A DNA stretch of 39,671 bases from Eubacterium sp. GTDB taxonomy: Bacteria; Bacillota; Clostridia; Lachnospirales; Lachnospiraceae. Below the pieces are notes generated by a model. The model worked only from the letters and a program-made list of their open reading frames with translations. It did no database searches and was not told the DNA's origin. This document shows positions 141 to 38,497 of this stretch, one piece after another. The position numbers were made by a program, and so were the translations under genes. Numbering within the stretch: the first letter of the stretch is position 1; each line of letters opens with the position of its first letter. The stretch is taken from assembly GCA_017477505.1 (NCBI GenBank), contig JAFUVQ010000001.1, forward strand, positions 1 through 39,671, given 5' to 3'.

Positions 141-2297
141 ATATACATAACCTCCGCAGGAGAGATAAAGCTTCTGGACTTCGGTGCGGCAAGATACAGC
201 CTCGGTGATAAGAGCCGAAGTCTTGATGTCGTACTTAAGCACGGCTTTGCTCCGAAGGAGCAGTATACCAGAAGAGGTAAGCAGGGACCATATACAGACG
301 TATATGCACTTGGCGCCAGCTTCTATTATGCGATCACAGGCAAGAGACCGCCTGATTCGGTTGAACGTATGGACGAGGATGAACTGGTTTCTCCGAGCAC
401 ACTGGGTGCGGAAATTGGAAGATCCGCGGAACAGGCAATACTTAAGGCTCTTAGTGTACAGCCGGCTGACCGTTTCCAGACCATGACCGAGTTTAAAGAC
501 GCAATGTTCTCATCTGTTAAGACGGATGTTGAAGAGAAGGCATATACTACTCAGACACAGTACAATACCACTACCTATGGTCAGGACAATTATGGTAACA
601 GTGCATATGGCGGAACAGGCGGCAGCCAGGGCCAGAATGCATACGGAACCCAGGTCGGCCAGAGTGGATACGGCAGTCAGGGCCGGAGCGCCTATGGTGC
701 ACAGGGCGGCCAGAATGCATACGGCAGTCAGGGCCAGAATGCCTATGGTGCACAGGGCGGCCAGAGCTCATACGGCAATCAGGGTCAGAATGCTTACGGT
801 GCACAGGGTGGCCGTAATGCGTATGGCAGTCAGGGCCAGAATGCCTATGGTGCGCAGGGCGGACGGAATGCATATGGCAGTCAGGGCCAGAATGCTTATG
901 GTACTCAGGGACAGGCACCTTATGGCGGTCAGAATCAGGCAGGAAAGACCGTAGCGGCCTACGGACAGGGGAATTCACCGTATGGTCAGAGTGGAGGAGT
1001 TTCCTATAACCAGTCTCCAAGTGGATATAATATGCAGCAGCCTCAGAAGAAGTCCAAGACCGGTATGATAATCGGAATAGTGGCCGGGGCAGTCTCGCTT
1101 CTTATCATAACCATAGTAGTTATAGCCATGGTTAGGAAAAATAAAGAAAAGAATACTACAGAGTACGCATCATATACAACAACTGAGTATACATATACCA
1201 CAACGGAAGCTACGACGGTATCAACCTATGATCCTCCGGCAACCACTGAAACAGTCACAACAGAAGCCACGACAGAGGCTACGACTGCATTTTCCGGAAC
1301 AGCAGGCATGTTCCAGGAGGTTCAGGGCGCACGACCGGGTGATATTTCAAACATGGGTGTCGTATGTATAGATGCAAATGGCCAGGAGTATGATGCTGAC
1401 TACGTTGGACAGAGGATACTCCGCTACAGCAAGGACGGAAATGATACGGTTCTTCTGGACGGAAGTTATGTATGGAGTCTTTCAATCTATGGCGATAACA
1501 TGTATTTCGTCAAGGGGCAGAGGGCTTATACCATGGGTAAGGACGGAAGCGGGCTTCAGCAGATCAGCGAGCTGTCAAGTTATGAGCATGTCGAAGCCAT
1601 ATACGTTACCGAAGAGACTTATCTTATCTACCAGTATGATAAGGACAGCAACCTCTCAAGACTCGTATCAGTTGAGAAGGGCAGCGGAGATGAACTTGGA
1701 ACTATAAAGTTCGGACGTGAGACGAATTCGGATGAAAAAATCTCATCAAGACATTTTACATTTGCAAATGGATGGCTTTTCTATCTGCTTAAGTCTGACG
1801 ACGGAATTACATATTCATCAACTGCAACACAGCGCGTATGGAAAGTTGCGGCAGGCGACATAGAATTCGAGCCTGAGGCGGTTTATCAGTTCAGCAAGGA
1901 AGCAACCCAGATAACCATAGATGGTGATTATATGTATTACCTCTATAAAGAGAATGACAAAGTAAACGGTATAGGAATGGCATATATCTATGACTTCACC
2001 AAGAATGCCGACTATACATGGGATGAAAATGAAGTTGATTTCTCCTATCTTACAGTTTACGATTCTCACCTTGCAGTGCTTTCAAAGAAGGATGACAAGT
2101 GTATGATTTATTCTGAGGACCCGGATATTGATTCTCAGAACTGGACACTTGATCCGGTTTATCAGATAGATGAGGGAGACAATTTTGTATTCGGTCTCTG
2201 CTCGACAAAAGCAGGATATTATTTTATCCAGACAGACGTTGGTGTTCAGTTTGTGGACAGAAGCGGCAATGGATTTACTAATATATCAGAAAGATAA
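141..2297 (+). pseudogene. Truncated transmembrane Ser/Thr protein kinase (C-lobe, YG/QN-repeat linker, TM, external sensor)
   Basis: The frame is open from 75 (in-frame stop at 72-74). Kinase similarity starts at about 141 with a KLLDFGAAR segment, the DFG magnesium loop, followed by APKEQY and TDVYALG, typical of the activation segment and helix F of bacterial PASTA-like kinases. The N-lobe, the ATP-binding glycine loop and the HRD catalytic loop are missing. After the C-lobe come 51-bp repeats (about 606-930) encoding NAYGSQGQNAYGAQGG-type units, one TM helix (near GMIIGIVAGAVSLLII, 1062-1134), a Thr-rich stalk, and an external domain of about 320 residues that resembles DUF5050-type beta-propeller repeats. 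Without a start or N-lobe it cannot be an active kinase. An ATG at 369 could still give a 642-residue protein without kinase activity, but no good ribosome binding site precedes it. The rest of the phospho-signalling cluster lies directly downstream. Confidence 0.72.
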
Positions 2298-2317
2298 TAT
2301 ATTGAGGAGGTATAAAG

Positions 2318-3088
2318 ATGGCTATAGTTGAATGTGGAAACGGACATCTCTATAACACAGATCAGTATGCTTCATGTCCATATTGCGGCGGCAGCATCAA
2401 TCGTGTTGAATTTGGGTATGGCGGGGACAGCAACATAGGAAAGACAGCACCGGCAGGTGGATTTGGCGGACCTGATTTTGGGGCACCGCAGTCTTCCTTC
2501 GGTGGACAGCCTGATTTCGGTTATGGCGGACAGGTATACGGGGCACCTGATAACTATGGGGCAACAGTTGCACCGAGCGGTTATAATCCCGGAGCATCAC
2601 CGAATATTACACCTGTAAATGAAGAGCTTGGATCAACAGTAGCACCGGCTTCATATCAGGCAGCGGCAAAGCAGGAAGAACCTAAAGAGGATGAGGATAC
2701 AGGAAAGACTGTAGCAGTCCTTAGGAAAAACCTTTCCATAGATCCTATCGCAGGCTGGCTCGTATGTATCGAGGGAAGCGACAAGGGCAAGGATTACAGG
2801 ATCATGGCCAAGAATAATTCTATCGGCAGAAGTGAGAAGATGGATATATGTATAAAGGGTGATGCAACTATATCACGTGAGAATCATGCACGTATTGCAT
2901 ATGACCTTAAGCACAATGCATTTCATTTGATTCCGGCAGACAGCACCAATGGTATTTATGTAAATGGAGAGCCTGTTTATGTGCCTACAGTTCTGAATGC
3001 CTTTGACGAGCTGGAATTCGGAGAAAGCAAATTCATGTTCGTACCTTTCTGCAGTGACAAATTCCAGTGGCAGAAAGAGGAAAAATAG
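2318..3088 (+). CDS. Soluble zinc-ribbon FHA-domain protein
   Basis: This 256-residue cytoplasmic protein starts after a GAGGAGG site. A short metal-binding ribbon (C6, H10, then C20-P-Y-C23) opens it. An aromatic/Gly-rich linker follows (about 30-120). An FHA domain fills 148-243 and keeps the phosphothreonine-binding residues: G170-R171, S186 with H190, and N211-G in an STNG motif. FHA domains bind phosphothreonine peptides. The linker carries four similar sites: GKTAP (T43), GATVAP (T83), GSTVAP (T107) and GKTVAV (T131). The last sits just before the FHA domain, a placement like the phospho-switch of mycobacterial GarA. It lies 20 nt after the kinase remnant and 9 nt before a PP2C gene, so it is probably co-transcribed and acts as the phospho-dependent adaptor. 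Partner identity is inferred. Confidence 0.9.
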   Translation: MAIVECGNGHLYNTDQYASCPYCGGSINRVEFGYGGDSNIGKTAPAGGFGGPDFGAPQSSFGGQPDFGYGGQVYGAPDNYGATVAPSGYNPGASPNITPVNEELGSTVAPASYQAAAKQEEPKEDEDTGKTVAVLRKNLSIDPIAGWLVCIEGSDKGKDYRIMAKNNSIGRSEKMDICIKGDATISRENHARIAYDLKHNAFHLIPADSTNGIYVNGEPVYVPTVLNAFDELEFGESKFMFVPFCSDKFQWQKEEK

Positions 3089-3097
3089 GAGAGAAGT

Positions 3098-3862
3098 ATG
3101 GAGAGAAGAAATCTTTCATACAGAATAGGCAATCTGCAAGGCGTTGGAGCCCGCAAAAGACAGGAGGATTCCTTTTCGGTCATGAATGCATTTGATGCAG
3201 CTCAGATCATGGAACAGGGACTCTTCTTCACGGTATGTGACGGAATGGGCGGAATGAAGGACGGAAAGCTTGCAAGCGAGACGGCGGTAGCATCTTTACG
3301 CGCTTCATTTACAGATATGGACAGAAGAGGCGATATATCAGCTCAGCTTAAGGAAGCCTGCTACAGGGCATCGGATAAGGTTGAGGAGATTATAGGCGGC
3401 AGTGGCGGAAGTACAACTGTTACCGGAGTCATCTTTAAGGAAAAGCTTTACTTCGCAAGCGTTGGCGACAGTTATTTTTTCCTTCTCAGGGATAAGAAAC
3501 TCTACAAGCTCAATCATGAGCACAATCTTCTTCATGAGAAATATCTCCAGGCTATAAAAGGAGGATATCCAAATCCCAAGGATTACGAGGGAATGAATGA
3601 GGCAGAGGCCTTGACACAGTTTCTGGGAATGATCGGACTGTCTGATGTGGATGGGACGGTAAGACCGATACCGCTGAAGGAGGGCGATGTCCTGATGGCA
3701 TGCTCTGACGGGGTAGGCGGAGTTCTGACAGAGGATGAGGTAAGAAGATGCCTTTCATTTGTATCAGAAAGATCAATGTGTCAGCAGATAGAACAGTTCC
3801 TGGTAGCACATGCAAGAAAAAACCAGGATAATTATACAGCACTTATAGTTAAGTGTGAGTAG
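3098..3862 (+). CDS. PP2C-family Ser/Thr protein phosphatase (first copy)
   Basis: This 254-residue cytoplasmic protein has the PP2C metal-site motifs in order: RQED (D24), VCDGMGG (D48), SVGDSY (D124), ACSDGVGG (D204) and QDNYTA (D244). All the acidic residues that hold the two metal ions are present, so it should be an active Mn/Mg-dependent phosphatase removing phosphate from Ser/Thr. It sits 9 nt after the FHA gene with its own GGAGAG site. Its expected job is to reverse the cluster's kinase signal. The substrate is not visible from sequence. Confidence 0.92.
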   Translation: MERRNLSYRIGNLQGVGARKRQEDSFSVMNAFDAAQIMEQGLFFTVCDGMGGMKDGKLASETAVASLRASFTDMDRRGDISAQLKEACYRASDKVEEIIGGSGGSTTVTGVIFKEKLYFASVGDSYFFLLRDKKLYKLNHEHNLLHEKYLQAIKGGYPNPKDYEGMNEAEALTQFLGMIGLSDVDGTVRPIPLKEGDVLMACSDGVGGVLTEDEVRRCLSFVSERSMCQQIEQFLVAHARKNQDNYTALIVKCE

Positions 3863-3931
3863 GTATGAAAATGCCTGAAAGGTAACTTCGGAGGGGTTAC
3901 CCTTGATTTCAAGGAAAGTGAGGAAATGTAA

Positions 3932-5329
3932 ATGAAGAAAAGAATGAAGAAATTGGTGGCGGCAATCGTCCTTACCATCATCATGGCGGTAGGAATCCTT
4001 CCTATCAAGTCATCTGCAGCCTTTGATACAGGCGTCAGAGACGGTGTCTGCGTAGTGCTCGGTATACTTGTTGATGCTGAGACCGGTGTTATCTATGACG
4101 GCGGACAGGGTTCCGGTTTCTTTATAGGTGACCCGGGTTCTAATCCGGAGTATCTTATAACAAATCATCATGTTATTGATACATATCTTACATACGGTAA
4201 AGGTGAGAAATGGCAGGCAGAGCTTACAGACGGCAGAACCGTTTATGTAAGAGCTTCCATCAGAGTTTATTTCTCAAGCGTTGAGTATGTAGAAGCAAGA
4301 GTTATCGATTCGGACGACATTGCAGACGTTGCAGTGCTCAGACTTTCAGCTCCTACAGATCAGAGAAAGGCACTTCCTCTTCATGAGGTTTCAGACAGCG
4401 AGATCGGAAGCAGCGTATACTGCGTAGGATATCCGGGAGTTGCTGAGAACTTCTATATCGAGTCCAATTCAAAGTGGAACAAAGAGGATGCCAGCGTTAC
4501 ATCCGGTACAGTAAGCCGACTTATCACTCTTAAGGGTACAGCTGTTAAGGCTATCCAGACAGATGCTCAGATCAATCACGGAAACTCAGGCGGACCTATG
4601 GTAAATGATAATGCCGAGGTTATCGGTATCAACTCATGGGGCGTTAATGTTGACGGTGAAGCTGAGAACTATGCAGTTGACATTTCAGAAGTAACTGCAA
4701 TGCTCAACAGAAACAATATCAGTTATTCTACATCAGGCGGAAACAACAACTCCAACCCGGGTGGTGAGGATGGAACAGAGACAGATACAACAACTCCTCC
4801 TGCACCTGAGAAGAAGGGCATGAGCACAGGCCTCCTTATAGGAATCATCCTTGGAGCACTTGTTCTTATAGCAGGTGTCGTAGTTCTTATAATCGTTCTT
4901 TCAAAGAAGGGCTCATCTGCACCTGCGCCGGCACCACAGCCAGCACCGGCACCTATGGGCGGCGGAGCTACCATGGCAGCTCCAAGACCGGCACCACAGC
5001 CATCAAAGAGACCTATGCTCAGATCACTTTCAACCCAGCATGGCGGTTCTACATTCCCTGTTGGAAATACACCTGTCATGATCGGTCGTGACGCTTCAAG
5101 CTGCGCTATAGTATTCCGTGAGGGTACAGCAGGTGTCAGCGGAAGACACTGCCAGGTTGCATTTGATGCAGCATCAAACAGCTTCGTAGTTACAGACCTT
5201 CGTTCATCTTATGGTACATTCCTTATGAACGGAACACGTCTTCCGGCAAATGCACCTTACAAGCTTCAGCCGGGCGACAGCTTCTATGTTGGTGACAAGC
5301 AGAACGTTATCCGTACTGAATTGGGGTAA
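3932..5329 (+). CDS. Membrane-anchored trypsin-like serine protease with cytoplasmic FHA domain
   Basis: This protein has 465 residues. A signal peptide covers about 1-29. A trypsin/HtrA-like domain spans about 35-260 with an apparently complete triad: H80 in TNHHV, D132 in DIADVAVL and S219 in GNSGGP. There is no PDZ domain. One TM helix (about 299-323) is followed by a Pro/Ala-rich cytoplasmic linker that contains GATMAA (T347). An FHA domain at about 381-455 keeps G385-R386, S403 and H406 in SGRH, and N433-G. The predicted topology puts the protease outside and the phosphothreonine reader inside, so cytoplasmic kinase signals could control external proteolysis or its placement. It lies 69 nt after the first PP2C gene and 3 nt before the second. 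Protease substrate unknown. Confidence 0.9.
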   Translation: MKKRMKKLVAAIVLTIIMAVGILPIKSSAAFDTGVRDGVCVVLGILVDAETGVIYDGGQGSGFFIGDPGSNPEYLITNHHVIDTYLTYGKGEKWQAELTDGRTVYVRASIRVYFSSVEYVEARVIDSDDIADVAVLRLSAPTDQRKALPLHEVSDSEIGSSVYCVGYPGVAENFYIESNSKWNKEDASVTSGTVSRLITLKGTAVKAIQTDAQINHGNSGGPMVNDNAEVIGINSWGVNVDGEAENYAVDISEVTAMLNRNNISYSTSGGNNNSNPGGEDGTETDTTTPPAPEKKGMSTGLLIGIILGALVLIAGVVVLIIVLSKKGSSAPAPAPQPAPAPMGGGATMAAPRPAPQPSKRPMLRSLSTQHGGSTFPVGNTPVMIGRDASSCAIVFREGTAGVSGRHCQVAFDAASNSFVVTDLRSSYGTFLMNGTRLPANAPYKLQPGDSFYVGDKQNVIRTELG

Positions 5330-5332
5330 AAA

Positions 5333-6055
5333 ATGATAATTGATGTATATGAATACAGCAATCAGGGTGGACGCAGCTACAACGAGGATTCCACCGGCCA
5401 TCGTATCGAAGGCGAAAATGGAATCTTCGTAGTGGCAGATGGCCTGGGCGGACACGCACACGGTGAAGTGGCTTCGGCTGCTGCAGTGGAGACGGTAACG
5501 ACGGATTGGACTCCGAATGTACCGAATCGCATGGCATGGTTCACAGAAGAGATTGCAAAAGCAAATGCAAATATTATGGGTATCTCCCAGCAGATGGGAG
5601 ATACTATGAAGAGCACCATAGTTACATTATCCATTGACAATGGAATGGCTGTGTGGGCTCATTCAGGAGATTCCAGACTGTATTACTTCCACCGCGGATG
5701 GATAGCGGCAGTGACAGATGATCATTCCGTAGCCTATAAGAAATATAAGGCGGGAGAGATCGATAAGGATGAGATAGCCTTTGATGAGGATCAGTCTGCA
5801 CTGCTCCGTACACTTGGCGGTGCCGATAGATTTGAGCCGGATGTAAATGGCTGGCCGGAGCTTCTGGAACCGGGAGATGCGTTTTTCCTTTGTTCAGATG
5901 GAGCCTGGGAATTTCTGAAAGATGAAGAAATACTGATAGATCTTCTGAAGGCTGAGAATGCAAAGCACTGGGCTGAACTTATGATGCTCAGGATGATGGA
6001 CAGAATAAAGGGTGGAAATGATAATTTTACCCTTCAGACAATTATGCTCAGCTAG
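5333..6055 (+). CDS. PP2C-family Ser/Thr protein phosphatase (second copy)
   Basis: This protein has 240 residues and PP2C motifs: SYNEDS (D19), VVADGLGGH (D36), HSGDSR (D113), LCSDGAWE (D189) and GGNDNFT (D230). It is closer to the classical PrpC/Stp1 form than the first copy and only distantly similar to it. The start lies 3 nt after the protease stop, with GGGG overlapping the end of that gene, so translation is probably coupled. Two phosphatases beside one kinase suggest separate targets or a backup copy; which is not visible here. Confidence 0.92.
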   Translation: MIIDVYEYSNQGGRSYNEDSTGHRIEGENGIFVVADGLGGHAHGEVASAAAVETVTTDWTPNVPNRMAWFTEEIAKANANIMGISQQMGDTMKSTIVTLSIDNGMAVWAHSGDSRLYYFHRGWIAAVTDDHSVAYKKYKAGEIDKDEIAFDEDQSALLRTLGGADRFEPDVNGWPELLEPGDAFFLCSDGAWEFLKDEEILIDLLKAENAKHWAELMMLRMMDRIKGGNDNFTLQTIMLS

Positions 6056-6076
6056 AAAAAACCGGAGGAATAATTC

Positions 6077-7327
6077 ATGAGAAAAAAACTGGGGTTATGG
6101 CTGGTTGCGGCTTCACTGGTACTGGGATACGGTACATCGGCAGAAGCTGCAGAGATAAAGAACATACAGCCGGATACCGGAATTGTTTTCGAATTAACTG
6201 ATATGGCCAAGGGCACTCCGGGAGGAGATAGCAGCGGAGGTGATCAGCCGGGCGTTGCTGAGCCGGGCGGACCTGCGGACGAAGGACCGAGTGAGCCGAC
6301 TACCGGATCCGATGGTTCGGTAATTGATGCTCCGGGCGGTGCGGCAGGGGATGAAAGACCGACAGAAGAGCCTACGACAGAGGGCCCTGTTGTTGAGGAA
6401 CCCACAACAGAGAAACCGGCAGATAAGCCAACTGAGAAACCGGATGAAAAGCCAACTGAGAAACCGGATGAAAAGCCAACCGAGGAGCCTGAAACAGTTG
6501 AAGAAACCAAGGGTAATGATTCAGATAAATCCGGGCTTAAGTCCGATAAGGATAAGGATGCCGTAGAAATGGCAACCGGAGATGCAAAGCCTGCAGGCGG
6601 TATAGATAGTAGCAGACTTATGCCTATAATTGTAATTATTGCGGGAATAGTACTTGTGGCAGTAGGAGTGATAATCCTTGTGATTGCTCTGGTTGCTGCA
6701 AAGAAAAAAGACAGTGCGTCAGAAGCCGTGCCTGATAATACAGGAGATGTTTCGCCGACAGGAAATGACTTTACGGCAGATACACCACCGGTACCGCCTG
6801 CATTTTCTGGAAATACACCGTCATATAATAATGCATTCCAGCCTGCACAGAACCTGGACACTACAGAAGCATCAGTAAGCGGAGCATTTGGTGGAGCCGG
6901 AGCATATGGAGCTGCAGCAGGAATGGGCATAGCAGCCGGAGCGGGCACAGCGGCAGGAATGGGCGCAGCTGTCGGAGCAGGAGTAGCGGCAGGAGTCATC
7001 GGTGCAGCATCCAGAGTGCCGGTAGAAGGCGCATTGCCTGTCAAAGTAGAAATCTATAACGGACAGGTTGCCGAGAACGACTTCATGCTCTATATGACAA
7101 GTGAGATCATCATAGGAAGTGATCCGGGTTGTGACATCGCATTCCGTGAGACCTGTGTGGATTCCAGAAATTCACGAATCTTCATAGCAAACGGAAGCCT
7201 ATACATAGAAGACCTCAGATCCACAAACGGCACTTCAGTAGCCGGATTAAGAATCCAGGGGCAGAGCGTACTCCGCAGCGGAGACGTAATCTCCATCGGA
7301 ATCGCAGAATTCTGCGTTAAATACTGA
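6077..7327 (+). CDS. Single-pass membrane protein with external Pro/Thr-rich stalk and cytoplasmic degenerate FHA domain
   Basis: This protein has 416 residues: a signal peptide (about 1-25, ending near SAEA), an external stalk rich in P, T, E and K (about 45-170) with KPTEKPDE repeats, one TM (about 181-207), an Ala/Gly-rich cytoplasmic linker (about 265-312) and a C-terminal FHA-like domain (about 322-414). The FHA fold is recognisable by IIIGSDPGCDI and RSTNGTS. The usual Arg after the first Gly is Ser348, and the usual S-x-x-H is replaced by residues near NSR. It may therefore not bind phosphothreonine in the normal way. It is the last gene of the cluster and has the same in/out design as the protease-FHA protein, so it may be a structural partner. 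The external stalk has no recognised enzyme domain. Confidence 0.85.
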   Translation: MRKKLGLWLVAASLVLGYGTSAEAAEIKNIQPDTGIVFELTDMAKGTPGGDSSGGDQPGVAEPGGPADEGPSEPTTGSDGSVIDAPGGAAGDERPTEEPTTEGPVVEEPTTEKPADKPTEKPDEKPTEKPDEKPTEEPETVEETKGNDSDKSGLKSDKDKDAVEMATGDAKPAGGIDSSRLMPIIVIIAGIVLVAVGVIILVIALVAAKKKDSASEAVPDNTGDVSPTGNDFTADTPPVPPAFSGNTPSYNNAFQPAQNLDTTEASVSGAFGGAGAYGAAAGMGIAAGAGTAAGMGAAVGAGVAAGVIGAASRVPVEGALPVKVEIYNGQVAENDFMLYMTSEIIIGSDPGCDIAFRETCVDSRNSRIFIANGSLYIEDLRSTNGTSVAGLRIQGQSVLRSGDVISIGIAEFCVKY

Positions 7328-7399: not shown

Positions 7400-8584
7400 T
7401 CATGCTTTCTTCAGATCTTCTAATTCTTTTTGTAAAGCAGAAATCAGAGCTCTGCTTTCATCGAGGGCCTTATCCTTTTCGTCAAGTTCTTTATTTTTTT
7501 CGTCAAGGGCCTTATCTTTTTCGTCAAGGGCCTTATCTTTTTCGTCGAGTTCCTTATCTTTTTCGACAAGTTCCTTGTTTTTTTCGTTAAGCTCCTTGTT
7601 TTTTTCGTCAAGGATCTTATATTTTTCGTCGATCTCTTTTTCTTTCTTAGCAATTACACTCTCTAGTTCATCGATTCTATCCGTAAGCTTATCGGTTATC
7701 AGGTCAAGTGATTGATCATATAACATGTTTTCGACCTCCTTCACATTGCTGTATTTTGAATAGAGGTAGTTCATAAGTCTGGTGGTTATGTCAACCAAAT
7801 GTATTGTATCATTACGGCTGATTTCACCACGCTTGAAGCTTCCTTCTATTGTCTGGATTATATCACTTTCCCATATGTTTCTCAACTCGTCTATCACGGA
7901 TTTAAGCTTCTCATTGGCTACTATTATATCCGAATCCGATGATTCTTTTACGGCCTCGTCATATGCTTTTCTGAAGCGGTCTCGGACTTTGAGGAGCTTA
8001 AACGGGAGCAGTATTATCATATGCTTTTCTCTTATCTGATCCAAAGACTCATTCTGGAATTTGATAGTCGGAATGTAGTATTTGATTTCTTTTTCATCAT
8101 CAAAAATGATATTTACAAGATACTCATCAGGAATATTTCCAGCCGGATTGAGATAGATGACAATCTGCCTCGGGAATCTTAGCCTTACGCCGCATCGCCG
8201 CCCATTTTCATCAAAAATGTCTTCTGAATTTCGTTTGGAGTGGCTGTAGCCATAGTCAAAAACCCTGAGCATGATGGAATTATCATCTTTATACATCTGA
8301 GCTTCAAGATGATAACTGTCCGTACCGTTGATAGTGATAATCGTATCGGAAATGGTATGCTTCATATCCTTATCCACATTTTCGGTCCAGTTGTAGGTGA
8401 CAGTACTGTCGAGAGGATAATCAGTACCGAAGAGCCCGTTGATAAAATTAACGATAGTCGGGTGGGACAGCGAGACTATCCGCTTAAAAGACAGGTCGAA
8501 AATGTCATGCGGATAATCCGGTGTTCTGTCATTTGCAGCAAGCTGAGATTTGGTTTCAATGTTCATTTGTTCTTTCTGATTCAT
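7400..8584 (-). CDS. Rpn/PD-(D/E)XK nuclease family transposase-like protein with heptad-repeat tail
   Basis: This protein has 394 residues and starts 9 nt after GGAAGGAG. The N-terminal part (FDLSFKRIVSLSHP, then FINGLFGTDYP, then SDTIITI and YHLEAQMY) matches the Rpn/YhgA-like PD-(D/E)XK nuclease group, with Asp and E-x-Q as the likely catalytic positions. Family members in E. coli (RpnA) are DNA endonucleases that promote RecA-independent recombination; many Firmicutes carry several copies. The C-terminal about 100 residues are a coiled coil built from eight seven-residue units of LDEKDKA/LDEKNKE type, encoded by near-identical 21-bp DNA repeats (about 7450-7625). The repeat number could vary between strains. 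It is transcribed against the FHA cluster and toward its terminator. Confidence 0.85.
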   Translation of the reverse strand: MNQKEQMNIETKSQLAANDRTPDYPHDIFDLSFKRIVSLSHPTIVNFINGLFGTDYPLDSTVTYNWTENVDKDMKHTISDTIITINGTDSYHLEAQMYKDDNSIMLRVFDYGYSHSKRNSEDIFDENGRRCGVRLRFPRQIVIYLNPAGNIPDEYLVNIIFDDEKEIKYYIPTIKFQNESLDQIREKHMIILLPFKLLKVRDRFRKAYDEAVKESSDSDIIVANEKLKSVIDELRNIWESDIIQTIEGSFKRGEISRNDTIHLVDITTRLMNYLYSKYSNVKEVENMLYDQSLDLITDKLTDRIDELESVIAKKEKEIDEKYKILDEKNKELNEKNKELVEKDKELDEKDKALDEKDKALDEKNKELDEKDKALDESRALISALQKELEDLKKA

Positions 8585-8824: not shown

Positions 8825-9076
8825 ATGAATACATATGAGTCTACAATTTCCCTTATGAGTACTCTTCCGGAGAAAGATTTGTTGAAAATAAAAGAATTTG
8901 TCAGTCGCCTTATTTCAAAACCTGAGGAGCGGACTGAGATGTTTAATCCATATAAGCATCTTACTAGAGAAGAGGTTATAGAACAGCTGGCTATTGCCAG
9001 AAGTCACGCAGAAGATGGAAGAACGATGGATGCTCATGTGGCTTCAGCAGGAATTAGGGAAAAGTATGGCTTATGA
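8825..9076 (+). CDS. Antitoxin of a type II toxin-antitoxin pair
   Basis: This 83-residue acidic protein follows a strong GAGGTGAT site. The N-terminal half is helical (SLMSTLPEKDLLKIKEF). The middle, YKHLTREEVIEQLAIAR, resembles the toxin-binding arm of small antitoxins found with ParE/RelE toxins. Its stop overlaps the toxin start (ATGA, 9073-9076), the usual arrangement with antitoxin first. No clear DNA-binding fold can be assigned by eye. Its role is inferred mainly from the partner. Confidence 0.75.
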   Translation: MNTYESTISLMSTLPEKDLLKIKEFVSRLISKPEERTEMFNPYKHLTREEVIEQLAIARSHAEDGRTMDAHVASAGIREKYGL

Positions 9077-9387
9077 AGACTTGGAATGTGATAGTTACTG
9101 ATGATGTACAGAATGATTTAGATAATTATGTGTATTATCTATTAGCAGAGAAACTTAATGAACAGGCTGCTCGAGCATTGCTTGATGACTATGATGAGAC
9201 GGTAGATATTTTGTCAGGAATTGCCGGGTCATTAAGGAATCTCGAGGATCCTGAATTGTCTATGTATAAAAAAATACGGTTACAAAGACATGATTACTAT
9301 CTTTTGTATCGCATAGTGGATGATTATGCTATAGTTGATCGTATGTTCCATGATTTACAGGATATTGATAAGGCATTAAAAAGCTAA
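9073..9387 (+). CDS. RelE/ParE-family toxin
   Basis: This 104-residue protein shows the RelE/ParE pattern: an N-terminal WNVIVTDDVQNDLDNYVYY strand-helix, a helical middle, then the strands KKIRLQRHDYYLLYRIVDDYAIVDRMFHDLQD. The last strand and the R-x-x-Y-L-L-Y-R stretch are typical. RelE members cut mRNA on the ribosome and ParE members poison gyrase; sequence reading alone does not separate them here. It overlaps the antitoxin by 4 nt, so translation is coupled. Confidence 0.82.
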   Translation: MKTWNVIVTDDVQNDLDNYVYYLLAEKLNEQAARALLDDYDETVDILSGIAGSLRNLEDPELSMYKKIRLQRHDYYLLYRIVDDYAIVDRMFHDLQDIDKALKS

Positions 9388-32510: not shown

Positions 32511-33374
32511 ATGGAAATAATGGAAATATCATTACTCACACCACTTGACCTGGATAAATTTGCTCATCTTTATCCCGAAAGTATACTGGGTGAACTCCCC
32601 GCAGATGCTATTTTGATCGGATGTATCATTACCGAGCCTATTGATGCGGCAGGTATTCTTATGGCACATGTTGATGATACAGATATTGTGATCGACTGGC
32701 TCTATGTGGACGAGATGTACAGAAGAAAAGGCTGTGCCAGCACTATGATGAAGGTTCTTCTTGATGCTGCCGCGGAGTCAGGTGAGCTGGACAGCGTAAC
32801 TATCATTTTCTCAGAAGAAGATGAGGGAATGAGTGAATTCCTTAGGATAAATGAGTTTATGGTGACTTACCGTGGAGGAGATAAGGGATTCAGTACACGA
32901 CTTGGAAAGATTCCGGTTCTTCCGGTTAACGAGAAACTGAAAGGCCAGCTTAATTTCCTCGATGATGTACCCGAAACTGAGTTCAGCCGCTTCAGAAGTC
33001 TTCTCAATGAAATGGTCATACCGGGGGTGGCTATCAAACTTCCATTTGAAAAGAGAAATTATCTCCCCGAAAGTAGTGCTATTATGGAAAACGGAATCAT
33101 CCGCGCAATCTTCCTTGTAAGAAAGATGGATGAATCAATCGAAGTATCCTGGGTTTATAACAACACCAATCAGGCGGCCGCTTTTCCGGCATTGATTAAT
33201 GCCAGTGTAAACCAGCTGAAGAAAAGCTACCCTGAAGATAATGCTTTCTGCTTTGCAAGTGTAAGCAGTAAGATGGACGAATTCATAGAAAGATGTATTC
33301 CGGTAGAATCATCATCCGAGATTTATTTTGGATCTTATATGTTTGGAGATGATTTTGGAGCCGAATTTGAATAG
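32511..33374 (+). CDS. GNAT-like acetyltransferase
   Basis: This protein has 287 residues. The N-terminal part shows a GNAT pattern: a beta strand AAGILMAHV, then DWLYVDEMYRRKGCASTMM, where R-R-K-G-C-A is the acetyl-CoA pyrophosphate loop (usually R/Q-x-x-G-x-G/A). A second, weaker domain fills the C-terminal half. The acceptor is unknown. AAGGA stands about 11 nt before ATG 32511. It lies 21 nt upstream of the alpha/beta hydrolase, so the two are probably co-transcribed. Confidence 0.78.
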   Translation: MEIMEISLLTPLDLDKFAHLYPESILGELPADAILIGCIITEPIDAAGILMAHVDDTDIVIDWLYVDEMYRRKGCASTMMKVLLDAAAESGELDSVTIIFSEEDEGMSEFLRINEFMVTYRGGDKGFSTRLGKIPVLPVNEKLKGQLNFLDDVPETEFSRFRSLLNEMVIPGVAIKLPFEKRNYLPESSAIMENGIIRAIFLVRKMDESIEVSWVYNNTNQAAAFPALINASVNQLKKSYPEDNAFCFASVSSKMDEFIERCIPVESSSEIYFGSYMFGDDFGAEFE

Positions 33375-33395
33375 AAATAAAGGAGGGAATCAGCT

Positions 33396-34820
33396 ATGCC
33401 AAGCCCTGAAAAGAAAACATTAGAAGAAATAATGAGTGATATTTATACCATGCAGCAGGCATCTAATAAAAAACCTGAAGTTAAGGAAGAAGAGATTAAA
33501 GAATATATACAGAATGAGCTTGAAAACAAAGCTGTCGACAAAAACAGCAAGGTTGCAAAGCACATTACAGAGCTTATGGCCAGAAATCCGATGGTAAGAA
33601 AGGAGCTCAAGGCGTCCCTTCCACAGGCAGATAAGGCAAGGAAGGAAAAGATGAATCAGCTCAGAACAGACGCTAAACGTTCCGGAATGTCTAAGCTGTG
33701 GAATGATTTTTCAGGCCGCAAGAAGCGCAATGCTAAAAAGGAACTTAAAGAGATAGCCCAGGCCAAAAGGAAAAGTGTCAGCGGTGACAAGCTGCATAAA
33801 AGTGCTTCCGACAAGATTAGTACAGGCCGAGGACGCCATATATTTACAAGCATGGTAAATGAACAGGCCTTGGGAACATTCGATGAACGTCATAATAATA
33901 AATTTACCTACAAAGAAGATAAAAATACTAAGATCATCAATCACAGAACCTCGGAGGGAATGCTGAATGGAGCGGTTCATTCGCCTGCGCCTGAAAAAGA
34001 CACCGGAAAAGTGGTGCTGTTTTTCTCGGGAAGCGGTGCCCCTTCGGCCAAATTAGTGAATACGGTACTCCAGGAATATTTGGATATGGGAGCTACAGTA
34101 GTTTCCATGGATTACAGAGGTTTTGGTAAGAGCGAGACACTGGACAGGAAAGGAAAGAAAAAAGGAACTCCTCTCAGCGAAAACTCTATTTACCAGGATG
34201 GACAGGAGATGCTTAACTATGTAATGAAGGAAATGAATGTTAAGCCTGAAAATATTATCCTTCACGGTTATTCAATGGGTGGTGCGGTTGCATCAAAGGT
34301 TGCGGCTGATTTTGCGCAGACCCAGCAGAAAAATGCACTTGAAACAGGAAGAAATGTAAAGAAGCTCGGCGGTGTTGTTTTGCACAGCCCTATGGCAACA
34401 ATGTATGAAGCTGCATACGAAGAGACCATCGAAGGTAAGGAAAGAACCTTCGGAAACAGATTCCATGCCGGCTTCATGGCAGGCGGTGGCAAGATGTTCG
34501 GAGGAGCTTACAATACACGCTCTCACATGAGGAGACTCCGTAAATTCGATCCTGATATGCCGGTTCACTACACATCCGGAGACTATAATGCAGGAGATCA
34601 ACTGGCTCTTGATGCAACTGATATTGACAAGGATAAGCAGGCTCACTTTAAGAATTCATCGAGTAACTACGGTGAATTTGACCATGAAGGCAGAAACCTG
34701 GATATAAATAATGGATTATTAAAGACCATGATAAATGGTACCCGCAAAGACGTACCTGTTCAGAAACAGCAGCAGCCACAGCAGCAGCGCGAGAGTAACG
34801 CGCACTCACTTGGAATATGA
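33396..34820 (+). CDS. Cytosolic alpha/beta hydrolase with long charged N-terminus
   Basis: This 474-residue protein has no signal peptide or TM. Residues 1-150 are helical and highly charged (KKRNAKKELKEIAQAKRK). The hydrolase core follows: VVLFFSGSGAPSAK, VSMDYRGFGKSE, the nucleophile elbow LHGYSMGGAV with Ser293, and a late NYGEFDHEGR that may hold the catalytic His. The C-terminus is Gln/Pro-rich. The layout is unlike ordinary metabolic esterases and closer to large multi-domain hydrolases of unknown role or effectors. AAGGAGG precedes the ATG. A strong terminator separates it from the next gene, which has the same low-complexity Gln/Pro flavour. Confidence 0.82.
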   Translation: MPSPEKKTLEEIMSDIYTMQQASNKKPEVKEEEIKEYIQNELENKAVDKNSKVAKHITELMARNPMVRKELKASLPQADKARKEKMNQLRTDAKRSGMSKLWNDFSGRKKRNAKKELKEIAQAKRKSVSGDKLHKSASDKISTGRGRHIFTSMVNEQALGTFDERHNNKFTYKEDKNTKIINHRTSEGMLNGAVHSPAPEKDTGKVVLFFSGSGAPSAKLVNTVLQEYLDMGATVVSMDYRGFGKSETLDRKGKKKGTPLSENSIYQDGQEMLNYVMKEMNVKPENIILHGYSMGGAVASKVAADFAQTQQKNALETGRNVKKLGGVVLHSPMATMYEAAYEETIEGKERTFGNRFHAGFMAGGGKMFGGAYNTRSHMRRLRKFDPDMPVHYTSGDYNAGDQLALDATDIDKDKQAHFKNSSSNYGEFDHEGRNLDINNGLLKTMINGTRKDVPVQKQQQPQQQRESNAHSLGI

Positions 34821-34824
34821 TTTT

Positions 34825-34853
34825 TACACCCCTGTGTTGCACACAGGGGTGTA
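34825..34853 (+). terminator. Perfect 13-bp terminator hairpin
   Basis: TACACCCCTGTGT pairs exactly with ACACAGGGGTGTA around TGC, preceded by TTTT and followed by TTATTTA. It ends the GNAT-hydrolase transcript. Confidence 0.85.
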
Positions 34854-34903
34854 TTATTTAGGCGTCGTATGAAACAAGTTACATTTTTCAAGGAGGTAAT
34901 GAT

Positions 34904-37900
34904 ATGCCACGTAATATAGACCCGTCAAAAGTAAAGTATAATTATGATGATATCAAAAAAGCATTTGAAGCCCTTAAGGACAGGGATAACAGTGACATTG
35001 TCAAGATATTTGATGTTGAACTGAAGAATCCTGATCTTTCAGGTGGTCTGACTCCTCTGATGACTAAGACAAACGGACTTGTCCATAATCAGCTTGCGAT
35101 AAAATTCGATGAGATATTTGGAGATATTCTGAGAGATCAGAGATATGTTATGGAAGAAAATGACGAGGAGCCGGATCCACTCGATCATTTTGGTATTCTG
35201 GATGATGATGGAGATTTCAACGGAATCTGGGATTATGTGGCTTATAATGTTTATGACAACTCTCACCTTGAATATGATCGAAACATGTGCAAGGCGGGTA
35301 TTCTTGCCCTTTTATGTGATAAAAAAGTAAATATACTTTATGCTCCGGAAGTGATAAAGGGTAACGATGTTGTTACGACTAAGCCTGAAGAAGCTGTTCA
35401 TGTAGGTGCTGCTATTATGACCAGACCTCAGAGAGAGAGGGAAGCAGCTAAAAATACATTTGTCAATACTATGAAAGGACAGCTGGATGAGATAGCTAAG
35501 GGCAATCATTCGGAAATATTTGATCTTAAGATTAATAATCATAAAAACAGACGTGTCGGATACTCGGATCGCGACAACTCCGGTATTATGTACTATAAGT
35601 TCAACCAGCTTTCGGAAGAGATGCGGGATGAAGCTGTAAGCAAGTTTGATGAGCTGTATGGCAAACTGCTTGAAACGGATAAGGATTTTCTTGACCACGT
35701 AACCATATTTAATAACGAGAAAGGAAGAAGTACAACCATCCCTAAGCTACTTAATCTTTCAAAAGAATTAACCGAGAAAGAGGAACGAGGAAGACATGCT
35801 CTGAAGGGGCCGGACAAGCTTCGCTGGAAGAAGATTCTCTTCATGCGCACTCTTACCGAACCTAATGTAACAATATCTTACAAGGATAAGGAAAGGGATA
35901 TTTCTGTCCCTATAGATATTCCTCCGATGTCAGATGCATATCTGAATGAGTTTCGTGCGGAGGAAATGCATGATTCAGCACATCCTGTTATTTCTACGGA
36001 GTCACTCTATGGTTTTAGTTTTAATTCGGCTGAGAACTTCAATAGACGTCTTGAAATGAGTGATGTGACTGAGGAGGAACTGAACAAGGCATCCGATACA
36101 TTTGACAAAGCCTATGAAAAGTTGATAAAAGCAGATAGAGGCGTTCATAAGAATATTGTAGAAATCTTTGAGTTCCAGCCTGACGATGACATGGAATATA
36201 CAAATGTAATGGATTATGTCAATGAGGTCCATGCCATAGATAATCTTACACCTGAGCAGGCTGTTAAGTATGCAAAGGCATATATACTTCATGCTCTTGT
36301 AGATCCACGTGAAGCTGTAAAGATCAACTTCGATGTCATAGATCTGAAAACAGGAAATACCGTAAGAGAGATTAAGGGATACGGTAAAGACAGAAATTCA
36401 ACTTTTAAAGGCAGACCCCCAAAGGATTATCCTAAGGAAGTAAAATTTGACCTTGTTAAGGATAGTAAAAAGAAGAAAAAGAATAAGGGAAATGAGCCGA
36501 AGAAGCTTGATGCCTTTAATCAGCTCCAGTTCAATAAGGCTGGCAAGAACCAGATAAAGGAAGAGAAGGTTCGCCAGGAAGATGTTATACAGGAAGTTGA
36601 TGAACTCGACGATGATGAGAAGGTTGTTGAGAACAAGATCGTCGATGAGAAGAAGGAAGATAAGAAGGTCGATGATAGGAAGGTAGTAAAGCAATTTAAG
36701 AACAAGCCTGTAAATGTAATTGTCGACGAGGAAGACGAAGATGAATTAGAGGGTAAGGTAGTTCAGAACAAGATTCTCAATGATGTTATTCATAAGGAAC
36801 CACCTGTACAGAATGTTGCACCACAGAATACGGGGTCACAGAACGTAGCACCACAGGTGAATAACGTAGGCCCACAGAATGCAGGTCCGCAGAACGTACC
36901 ACCACAGGTACAGAATGTACAGCCACAGGCAAATAACGTAGTACCGCCGCAGCAGGTACAGAATGTACAGCCACAGGCAAATAACGTAGTACCGCCACAG
37001 CAGGTACAGAATGTACAGCCACAGGTACAGAACGTGGCTCCGCAGCCTCACAATATAAATGATTTCGTTGTACATAATCGTCAGATGAAGGAAGGTCCGG
37101 ATAATCCGGGTGCTCGACGTATCGAAGCGTTTTCACATGGCGTTAAGGATTTAAATGCAGGCGTTAGTGCCATGATTGAAAAACTTAAGAAAGTTAAGAA
37201 GCAGCTGCTTAGGAGCCAGACTGACAAGGACAGGAATTTCGGCGGCGCCGAGAAGGAAGGATCAAAGTCTTATCAGAAAATGACTAATGATCTCCATGAT
37301 CTTTTGACTAAGCTTGAAGACAGAAATACTTTACCAGGTGAAATCCGGGCTGCAATGATGAAGCTTTATAAGTCATCAACTGATTATTACAAGAGCCACC
37401 TTACATTTTCAGGCAAAAAGCATTCTGATAAAGGTCAGTGGAGACTTGATGCTTCTGAATATATGGTGAACAGACTTCCTGTTATGATGAATATGTACAG
37501 TAATCTCAGAACAGGCGTTTCATATATAACTGATCCGGACGGACGCGCATACGGCAACAAGAGTCTTGCGGAAGTAGAGCAGGCCGGCCAGAATATTCTG
37601 AATAATCATAATGACTTAAAGAATTATATAGATTCTCAGAATTATAATCCGCCATCATATGAAGATATGGCGAAGATGTCCAGAATACAGCTTCAGATGC
37701 GTGAGAAGATAGGAAAATTCAGCAAGACCATGGCAAGGGTTTACGAATATACCAAGGGCTATGATTTTTATCTCTCAGTAAAGAGCAGTGAAAATGTAGT
37801 CGATAAGGCAAAGTACTTTACAGCAAAGAAGTATCTTGACAGAGTATATAATCCAAAGACATCGCTGCATGAGGCTGAAATGCTTGAGCATGTATTTAAT

Positions 37901-38497
37901 AACGATACATTTAAAAGAGAATATGAGGCACTTGCAAAGAACCCTACATTTAAGGCATTTATAAGAAATAATCCGCAGAGCGCACTCAGTGGATGGGCAG
38001 CGATTGATAAAAGAACTGATAATATTCTCGAGCAGATGCAGACAGCAACCACTCCGGAAAAGATAGAGGAGATTCAGACAAAAGTTGCAAATGATCTGAC
38101 ACAGATTCAGAATCAGCAGAATCAGCTGAATGAACAGCAGAAGAAGACCAGGATGGATGCCTGCGTGAAGGAAATCGCTGAGGCGATCACAAACCAGATA
38201 CTTCTGAGCGATAAGATGCGTCCTGTTGTAAATGAGATAGCTGCAGAACCCGGTAAGCTTATCAGGAACAGCATTATAGAAAGCGTAAAAAATACTATTA
38301 ACAGAACCCATATTCTGGAAAGACGCGGAAATGAGTCGAGTAGTGCAGCTGTTGAGAGAGTGCTGAATGATAATAACTTCAAGTCAACAGCAATGAAGGA
38401 TTATCAGAGATTCGTTACCACAGCCCGCGGACGTGAGGCTATGAACCCTGAAGCGGTAATGCAGCAGGGCCATGGTATGAATAATGGACACCAGTAG
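34904..38497 (+). CDS. 1197-residue protein of unknown function with three internal repeats
   Basis: I do not recognise the family. There is no signal peptide or TM. Three divergent repeats are visible in the first half. Each has an FDE-x-YG-x-LL helix (68-76, 248-256, 400-408) and, 61-65 residues later, an IL-hydrophobic strand ending in V-x-I-x-Y/F (133-146, 311-326, 461-476). A Lys-rich stretch follows (about 520-530), then an acidic/Lys region (560-620), then a Pro/Gln/Asn/Val linker with QNVQPQANNVVPPQQ repeats (about 630-725). A long helical C-terminal domain (about 735-1197) completes it. AAGGAGG precedes the ATG. The Gln/Pro linker resembles the tail of the adjacent hydrolase, so the two may belong to one system. 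Confidence 0.85.
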   Translation: MPRNIDPSKVKYNYDDIKKAFEALKDRDNSDIVKIFDVELKNPDLSGGLTPLMTKTNGLVHNQLAIKFDEIFGDILRDQRYVMEENDEEPDPLDHFGILDDDGDFNGIWDYVAYNVYDNSHLEYDRNMCKAGILALLCDKKVNILYAPEVIKGNDVVTTKPEEAVHVGAAIMTRPQREREAAKNTFVNTMKGQLDEIAKGNHSEIFDLKINNHKNRRVGYSDRDNSGIMYYKFNQLSEEMRDEAVSKFDELYGKLLETDKDFLDHVTIFNNEKGRSTTIPKLLNLSKELTEKEERGRHALKGPDKLRWKKILFMRTLTEPNVTISYKDKERDISVPIDIPPMSDAYLNEFRAEEMHDSAHPVISTESLYGFSFNSAENFNRRLEMSDVTEEELNKASDTFDKAYEKLIKADRGVHKNIVEIFEFQPDDDMEYTNVMDYVNEVHAIDNLTPEQAVKYAKAYILHALVDPREAVKINFDVIDLKTGNTVREIKGYGKDRNSTFKGRPPKDYPKEVKFDLVKDSKKKKKNKGNEPKKLDAFNQLQFNKAGKNQIKEEKVRQEDVIQEVDELDDDEKVVENKIVDEKKEDKKVDDRKVVKQFKNKPVNVIVDEEDEDELEGKVVQNKILNDVIHKEPPVQNVAPQNTGSQNVAPQVNNVGPQNAGPQNVPPQVQNVQPQANNVVPPQQVQNVQPQANNVVPPQQVQNVQPQVQNVAPQPHNINDFVVHNRQMKEGPDNPGARRIEAFSHGVKDLNAGVSAMIEKLKKVKKQLLRSQTDKDRNFGGAEKEGSKSYQKMTNDLHDLLTKLEDRNTLPGEIRAAMMKLYKSSTDYYKSHLTFSGKKHSDKGQWRLDASEYMVNRLPVMMNMYSNLRTGVSYITDPDGRAYGNKSLAEVEQAGQNILNNHNDLKNYIDSQNYNPPSYEDMAKMSRIQLQMREKIGKFSKTMARVYEYTKGYDFYLSVKSSENVVDKAKYFTAKKYLDRVYNPKTSLHEAEMLEHVFNNDTFKREYEALAKNPTFKAFIRNNPQSALSGWAAIDKRTDNILEQMQTATTPEKIEEIQTKVANDLTQIQNQQNQLNEQQKKTRMDACVKEIAEAITNQILLSDKMRPVVNEIAAEPGKLIRNSIIESVKNTINRTHILERRGNESSSAAVERVLNDNNFKSTAMKDYQRFVTTARGREAMNPEAVMQQGHGMNNGHQ

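Follow-up and report, generated by a model that had tools for sequence, protein, structure and literature searches.

What could couple phosphorylation inside a bacterial cell to proteolysis outside it? The question is raised by six adjacent genes at the start of contig JAFUVQ010000001.1 of an Eubacterium sp. assembly (GCA_017477505.1; Lachnospiraceae), which encode a broken transmembrane (TM) kinase, a soluble FHA adaptor, two PP2C phosphatases, a trypsin-like protease joined through a TM helix to an FHA domain, and a second single-pass protein with an FHA tail. The window analyzed here is that entire contig (39,671 nucleotides; C41 of the 76 contigs of a 3.2-Mb genome). The six-gene cluster is a real, conserved module, a variant of bacterial kinase/PP2C/FHA signaling that is apparently undescribed: a literature search, whose reach took in few subscription papers, recognized no published module with an FHA-fused trypsin-like protease. 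A tentative reading, held at a little short of even confidence, is that the products form a conserved membrane signaling complex in which the kinase would phosphorylate threonine-bearing tags of the adaptor and so recruit or switch the protease, which is predicted to lie outside, through its internal FHA tail. With a phospho-reader fused to an outward-facing protease, phosphorylation in the cytosol would act directly on proteolysis at the surface, opposite in direction to the usual cascade from outside to inside.

Gene content of the module

The six genes are all on the + strand, with 3 to 69 bases between neighbors, and are preceded by the remains of an insertion element.

1-139, no strand assigned: end of a multicopy insertion element that interrupts the kinase gene; the contig begins here, and this end repeats elsewhere in the genome
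140-150, + strand: 11-bp target site duplication, TATATACATAA; its reverse complement is at C1:202-212, beside the other element end
About 140-2297, + strand: C-terminal kinase fragment with the DFG half of the kinase domain, a Gly/Tyr/Gln-rich linker, a predicted TM helix (about 1065-1136) and a beta-rich domain predicted outside
2318-3088, + strand: soluble adaptor with an N-terminal zinc ribbon, a Thr-tagged linker predicted to be disordered and a C-terminal FHA domain (Pfam FHA, 5.1e-13)
2387-2752, + strand: linker of the adaptor, where four tags of the pattern G-[KASDQ]-T-[VAI]-[APG] are candidates for phosphorylation (shuffling test and alignment)
3098-3862, + strand: PP2C phosphatase 1, QEDS/DGMGG type (Pfam PP2C, 4.9e-10)
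3932-5329, + strand: trypsin/HtrA-like protease (predicted outside), TM helix and FHA domain (predicted inside) (Pfam Trypsin_2, 1.1e-23; FHA, 2.5e-13)
5333-6055, + strand: PP2C phosphatase 2, NEDS/DGLGG type (Pfam PP2C_2, 5.2e-11)
6077-7327, + strand: single-pass protein with a signal-peptide-like start, a Pro/Thr/Glu-rich stalk, a TM helix and a degenerate FHA domain (Pfam FHA, 3.9e-12)

Pfam matches above cut-off were found for FHA in three genes, PP2C in two and Trypsin_2 in one; the kinase fragment by itself fell below the cut-off (20 of 31.7 bits). One cluster holds the kinase HRD...N and DFG motifs (taken from an intact homologue, P0241), the PP2C metal-site motifs and a candidate FHA reader, as in other Ser/Thr kinase-PP2C-FHA signaling modules. 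Spacing and Pfam matches agree with the first-pass annotation, made from the sequence alone, which had proposed this six-gene cluster; two details needed correction, namely the zinc ribbon of the adaptor and the degenerate state of the last FHA domain. The genome as a whole contains 14 kinase matches and 19 FHA matches.

Conservation across genomes

Relatives came from surveys of 250 genomes of the family and 391 of the class, and from a contig search (80 loci kept of at least 556 relatives). Loci were chosen by protease similarity and their regions picked by hand, so the counts describe that protease family and not all genomes. Among the 129 loci scanned, 45 had a called protease-FHA open reading frame (46 before the removal of L236, a copy of L115); loci that contain module genes without this reading frame (for example, L095, L101, L120, L122, L123 and L141) lie outside the counts. 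Gene labels outside the Pfam scans are from profiles built in this analysis, and neighbors were counted on the same strand within 10 kb. By this measure, a PP2C gene was near 42 of the 45 protease-FHA genes and a kinase gene near 38, the window itself being scored as having no kinase as its N-terminal half is on contig C1. Around 61 protease genes with no fused FHA domain there were 0 PP2C, 0 kinase and 0 FHA genes; these controls were drawn from L124-L185, where 61 of 62 loci had the protease domain (the odd one is likely L141, where adaptors occur), and other phyla account for many of them. The search of other genomes for this gene order that had been proposed at the outset found the genes clustered, not scattered.

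The adaptor gene was present in 29 of the 45 loci, a count that is low by three (32 if they are added) because the adaptors of L087, L239 and L242 were labelled F in the neighbor count and Zn-FHA by the other labelling. The 29 adaptor loci all had PP2C (two or more in 23), 25 had a kinase and 19 had a TM-FHA or vWA-TM-FHA gene; among the 16 loci without an adaptor, 13 had a kinase and 13 had PP2C. An unbroken adaptor-PP2C-protease/FHA-PP2C string occurred in 12 of the 45 loci; in 9 of these the following gene was of the TM-FHA or vWA-TM-FHA kind. The distinction between a first phosphatase with QED/DGMGG and a second with NED/DGLGG was found also at L086, L088, L089, L106, L108, L109, L110, L112 and L115. 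The module is found in some members of the class Clostridia. Named hosts of adaptor loci include Lachnospiraceae, Oscillospiraceae, Ruminococcus, Christensenella and one metagenome-assembled genome (MAG) of the Chloroflexi; among the protease relatives, some bear the names Lachnospiraceae, Clostridium or Ruminococcus. That the genes form one module, as first supposed, is supported by this retention of gene order in other genera and by the joining of FHA to protease via one predicted membrane helix.

In a quick protease tree, the window fell in a 13-row set, all of it adaptor linked (SH-aLRT 98). A second set of 11 rows (SH-aLRT 93) comprised ten of the twelve rows labelled as like type VII secretion system (T7SS) proteases and the second L099 protease; the other two such rows (L239 and L242) are mislabelled adaptor loci, and the tree carries SH-aLRT support only, with weak deepest forks. 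The class survey had 19 of 391 genomes at 1e-20, some of them T7-type.

A kinase gene split by an insertion element

The first-pass annotation had described the kinase as broken, and the break is genuine and no mere window edge. The first 139 to 143 bases of the window repeat at C62:1, C34:1 and the end of C17 (99-100% identical) and within C23 (87%). The N-terminal half of the kinase is on the minus strand of C1, up to C1:709, covers Pkinase positions 1-131 and runs into a different repeated end, whose final 118 to 142 bases recur at six further contig ends (98-99% identical). Both halves align with the intact 867-residue homologue P0241, from a MAG named Eubacterium sp. that is close to the source organism, over residues 1-174 (97% identical) and 167-867 (93%), the final few residues of the first match, at the junction, being coded by the element. 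Because the element ends are repeated, the 11-bp target site is duplicated and both halves fit one homologue, the gene is interrupted within the kinase domain by an insertion element whose middle was lost between contigs; the element end and target duplication exclude the contig edge as the sole cause. The divergent gene upstream of the kinase on C1 is presumably a SAICAR synthase, which it resembles.

With its own kinase split, the module in this genome would be either kept unphosphorylated or served by another kinase. It could also be a decaying remnant with no function, as the split kinase and the lack of a detectable vWA domain in the last protein might imply. That is unlikely: the other five genes are open and keep their catalytic motifs, the genome has 12 kinase matches besides the two halves, and the exact 11-bp duplication suggests a recent insertion.

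Kinase regions beyond the kinase domain vary among genomes while the rest is kept, with DUF5050 in L088 and L117, MORN repeats in L089 (and under cut-off in L108), leucine-rich repeats (LRR) in L111 and DUF6273 in one of three L086 kinases; no outer-domain family scored above the Pfam cut-off in the kinases of L109, L110 and L115 or in P0241. Because the outer domains differ in this way, this part of the kinase may well be an exchangeable sensor. The ectodomain in the window is weakly similar to parts of the kinases of L088, L095 and L110 (E values of 1.6e-9, 5.3e-6 and 2.3e-4 in a small local set). Beta-propellers headed the Foldseek list, only a hint given a poor model (mean pLDDT, 52). Assignment to a sensor family was abandoned, the sole protein match being the 98% homologue P0241, the other matches weak and the model poor. 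The kinase is also not of the PASTA type (PknB/PrkC, NF033483): the fragment scored 43.6 of 450 bits, and P0241 had no PASTA match.

Candidate phosphopeptide readers and the protease

Contact positions of the FHA domains (Arg, Ser, His and Asn) were picked from residues reported for Rad53 and ArnA in passages of PMC6509490 and from general knowledge, and columns were read from an automatic alignment in which the adaptor His column is unsure. The Arg, Ser and His contacts are present in the adaptor and protease FHA domains of the window and absent from the 6077-7327 protein, where Ser, Asp and Asn replace them. Over 26 protease rows, the catalytic triad (H80, D132 and S219) and FHA residues G385, R386, S403 and H406 are invariant. 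Over the 45 loci, the protease FHA domain has His in 45 and Arg in 33, with Lys in 11 (it occurs in T7-type loci) and Ser in 1; the adaptor FHA domain retains Arg in 30 of 31. The triad is that of the HtrA/Do family, but no PDZ domain was found with Pfam and the family score was 84 of 416 bits.

The last protein differs from these two. Ten loci of the 13-row tree set have such a protein, and L121 alone retains all three contacts; outside the set, L042, L244 and L246 do so. In relatives, a vWA domain takes the place of the stalk, above the Pfam cut-off in L086, L089, L111, L112 and L042 and below it in L088, L120 and L121, and a metal ion-dependent adhesion site (MIDAS)-like D-x-S-x-S motif was found in 8 of 8 vWA forms scanned. 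The von Willebrand proteins named among possible flanking genes in the first-pass annotation are real neighbors in relatives, as vWA-TM-FHA proteins adjoining the module. Pfam gave no vWA match for the window protein or for L115, and the idea of a concealed vWA domain in 6077-7327 was dropped on that ground.

Might the FHA domains then be structural docking units that work independently of phosphorylation, as reported for EssC and EssB, the kinase and PP2C having other targets? The last protein would fit: in the window, and in 8 of 9 further tree-set members that have it, at least one of the three contacts is gone. So would the EssC FHA domains of T7SSb, which in passages of PMC11217815 lack the site and bind a pseudokinase. 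This reading is distinctly unlikely, given the near-constant Arg of the adaptor and the constant His of the protease.

Other membrane arrangements join FHA domains to proteases. A 561-residue protein on contig C60 of this genome (L249:434-2119) has the reverse order, FHA domain, TM helix and then a trypsin-like part with GNSGGP (local profile), and would be expected to have the same sidedness as the window protease. A PrsW-FHA gene is present in 4 of the 29 adaptor loci, confirmed by Pfam at L086 and L088. These sequences point to a recurring theme of phospho-readers inside and proteases within or outside the membrane. Separately, at L086:13698-18338, a dynamin-like GTPase fused to FHA is beside a second dynamin-like protein and adjoins the PrsW-FHA gene and the module. 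The C60 cluster (G000:C60:1-38300; L041 and L042) has seven kinase matches, six of the genes having an N-terminal zinc-ribbon pattern and the first being cut by the contig start, together with many FHA proteins, two PP2C, a vWA-TM-FHA protein and S-layer/LRR surface proteins.

Threonine tags of the adaptor

Zinc-ribbon residues C6, H10, C20 and C23 are invariant over 42 adaptor rows, and linker residues T43, T107 and T131 are at least 90% conserved. In an AlphaFold2 model of the adaptor the FHA domain is confident, the ribbon fairly confident and the linker of low confidence and likely disordered. The four tags of the window linker compare with 0.03 expected, and 0 of 20000 shuffles reached as many, for a pattern chosen after the sequences had been viewed. 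KT[VIAM] occurs 216 times against 10 by shuffling in 110 adaptor linkers, which are mutually related (10 of 120 proteins were left out for want of an anchor). Among 27 adaptor linkers under 70% identity, the broader tag was seen 41 times (3.8 expected) and was present in 20. The last tag directly precedes the FHA domain in most rows shown, as DTGKTVAV or alike.

Kinase linkers and tails (64) had 6 occurrences of a like pattern against 3.5 expected. Because the adaptor linkers are enriched in tags and the kinase linkers are not, the adaptor is the best candidate substrate of the kinase. The earlier expectation that both FHA tails would bind the phosphorylated kinase linker is weakened by this lack of enrichment and by the missing contacts of the last FHA domain; what remains in its favor is a single GKTVAA in the window kinase linker, and kinase-linker threonines were rejected as a general FHA ligand.

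An adaptor of this kind could itself be the output, as in GarA or OdhI, its unphosphorylated form tuning cytosolic enzymes while the protease and vWA proteins are mere sensors or quality control. In its favor are a Thr-bearing N-terminal stretch ahead of a C-terminal FHA domain and weak NCBIfam matches to FhaB (37.3 of 125 bits) and OdhI (32 of 200 bits). Both matches are far below cut-off, however; the zinc ribbon and the multiple tags also count against this reading, and the protease-fused FHA domain would be left unexplained. Such a role is highly doubtful.

Relation to type VII secretion

The output of the module was left open in the first-pass annotation, with T7SS among the flanks to be sought. 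No EssC gene was within 10 kb in any of the 29 adaptor loci, and in the search of this genome C41 yielded no FtsK/SpoIIIE match, while its WXG100 matches (17.2 and 12.3 bits) were both below cut-off; the window is not classed as a T7SSe locus. A sister class of the protease does sit in T7SS loci: among the 16 loci without an adaptor, EssC was within 10 kb in three (L050, L096 and L097), and L099 has an LXG/GHH toxin gene. One of these is in the same genome, where EssC on C39 is accompanied by two WXG100 matches (the second barely above cut-off) and its own protease/TM/FHA protein (L050). This T7SS locus (G000:C39:92000-103000) also has an FHA protein. On C55, a row of PP2C, kinase, TM and giant Ig-like protein genes resembles the T7SSe set in passages of PMC11217815.

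All 16 genomes searched with the C39 EssC have some FtsK-type match. Among 14 genomes with the adaptor-side protease, 12 (two of them one-contig genomes) have an EssC-like match limited to one ATPase region, though misses are possible, as the query was a single sequence and completeness is below 85% for two of the 12. Only this genome and G147 (in pieces, one with an internal TAG) match beyond one ATPase domain; in the T7-type controls G207 and G153 the match is full length. G395 and G320 nearly provide the case of a closed genome that carries the full module but lacks T7SS. Because of the matches confined to one ATPase region in 12 of 14 genomes, secretion was rejected as the required output. 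The presence of the sister class in T7SS loci nevertheless suggests that the fused protease has moved between T7SS and stand-alone modules. That the module regulates T7SS, with a mycosin-like processing protease and phosphorylation gating the EssC machine, is very improbable given the EssC results and the separation of protease classes in the tree, even with the sister class in T7SS loci and the kinases, PPM phosphatases and FHA proteins described for T7SS subtypes in passages of PMC11217815.

Proposed mechanism

The phosphorylation-gated membrane complex remains the favored, if tentative, reading. From the gene content and order, catalytic residues, tags and split kinase as observed, and with membrane topology as predicted from sequence, the following steps may be inferred. 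The outer part of the kinase would sense a signal, and the kinase would phosphorylate the G-K-T-V-A tags of the adaptor. The FHA domains of the adaptor and the protease would read the tag phosphothreonines, phosphorylation deciding between fold-back of the adaptor and a bridge to the protease, and the state of the adaptor would alter how the protease clusters or how active it is. The two distinct PP2C enzymes may reset the adaptor and a second target. The vWA/TM/degenerate-FHA protein could be a partner that needs no phosphorylation and holds a ligand or substrate on the outer side; in this genome its outer part would be reduced to a stalk.

Several observations, the split kinase of this genome among them, weigh against this complex. 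Its spread is patchy: protease matches at an E value of 1e-30 or better occur in 7 of the 250 family genomes, the window genome included, and the lone same-genus genome in that sample has a match of just 1.4e-7. Tyr, His or Phe stands where Asn is usual in 27 of 45 protease FHA domains (Tyr in the window). Besides the unenriched kinase linkers, tags are few in protease linkers (one GATMAA in that of the window), and the pattern picks out no tag in seven of the 27 adaptor linkers (L089, L107, L115, L116, L118 and two of L141). AlphaFold2, with its low-confidence linker, gives no support for docking of the tagged linker on the FHA domain.

A broader proposal is possible but held more loosely: a bacterial form of inside-out proteolysis, independent of known secretion systems, in which a kinase with exchangeable external sensors would place phosphothreonine tags on a zinc-ribbon/FHA hub, and the hub would gate a family of FHA-wired proteases (HtrA-like ones outside and PrsW embedded in the membrane) and adhesion-type vWA surface proteins.

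Other features of the window

Directly past the module is a minus-strand protein (7400-8584) with a tail of EKDKELDEKDKAL-like repeats and no family above cut-off. Two short overlapping genes (8825-9387) resemble an antitoxin/toxin pair by eye, with no NCBIfam match. At 32511-38497, a GNAT-like gene and an alpha/beta hydrolase share one row with a protein of 1197 residues that has PQ-rich repeats and for which Pfam gave no match.

Comparison with known systems

The surface proteases HtrA/DegP and MarP share the trypsin-like fold and triad with the window protease, which differs in having no PDZ match, in carrying an FHA domain across the membrane and in scoring below the NCBIfam cut-offs. GarA and OdhI consist of a flexible N-terminal Thr site and a C-terminal FHA domain, a layout that the adaptor shares; unlike them, it has a zinc ribbon, several tags and membrane partners, and it is below their NCBIfam cut-offs. 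TerY-P triads bring vWA, kinase and PP2C together, as the module does in its relatives. The same combination appears in T7SSc, where, in the passages of PMC11217815 that describe it, the vWA protein is likely cytoplasmic and no FHA-fused protease is mentioned. In T7SSe and related T7SS subtypes, a single cluster likewise unites a membrane kinase, a PPM phosphatase and FHA proteins (TseD, TseF and TseJ of T7SSe in passages of PMC11217815), and the sister protease class is in T7SS loci; the absence of nearby EssC from the 29 adaptor loci sets the module apart, and the main text of PMC11217815 uses "trypsin" and "peptidase" 0 times and "protease" twice. For ArnA-ArnB of Sulfolobus, passages of PMC6509490 likewise describe a zinc-finger/FHA protein with a vWA partner, alongside Ser/Thr kinases and a phosphatase. 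That system governs archaellum expression; the present module differs in its FHA-fused protease and in that a membrane protein carries the vWA domain of its relatives.

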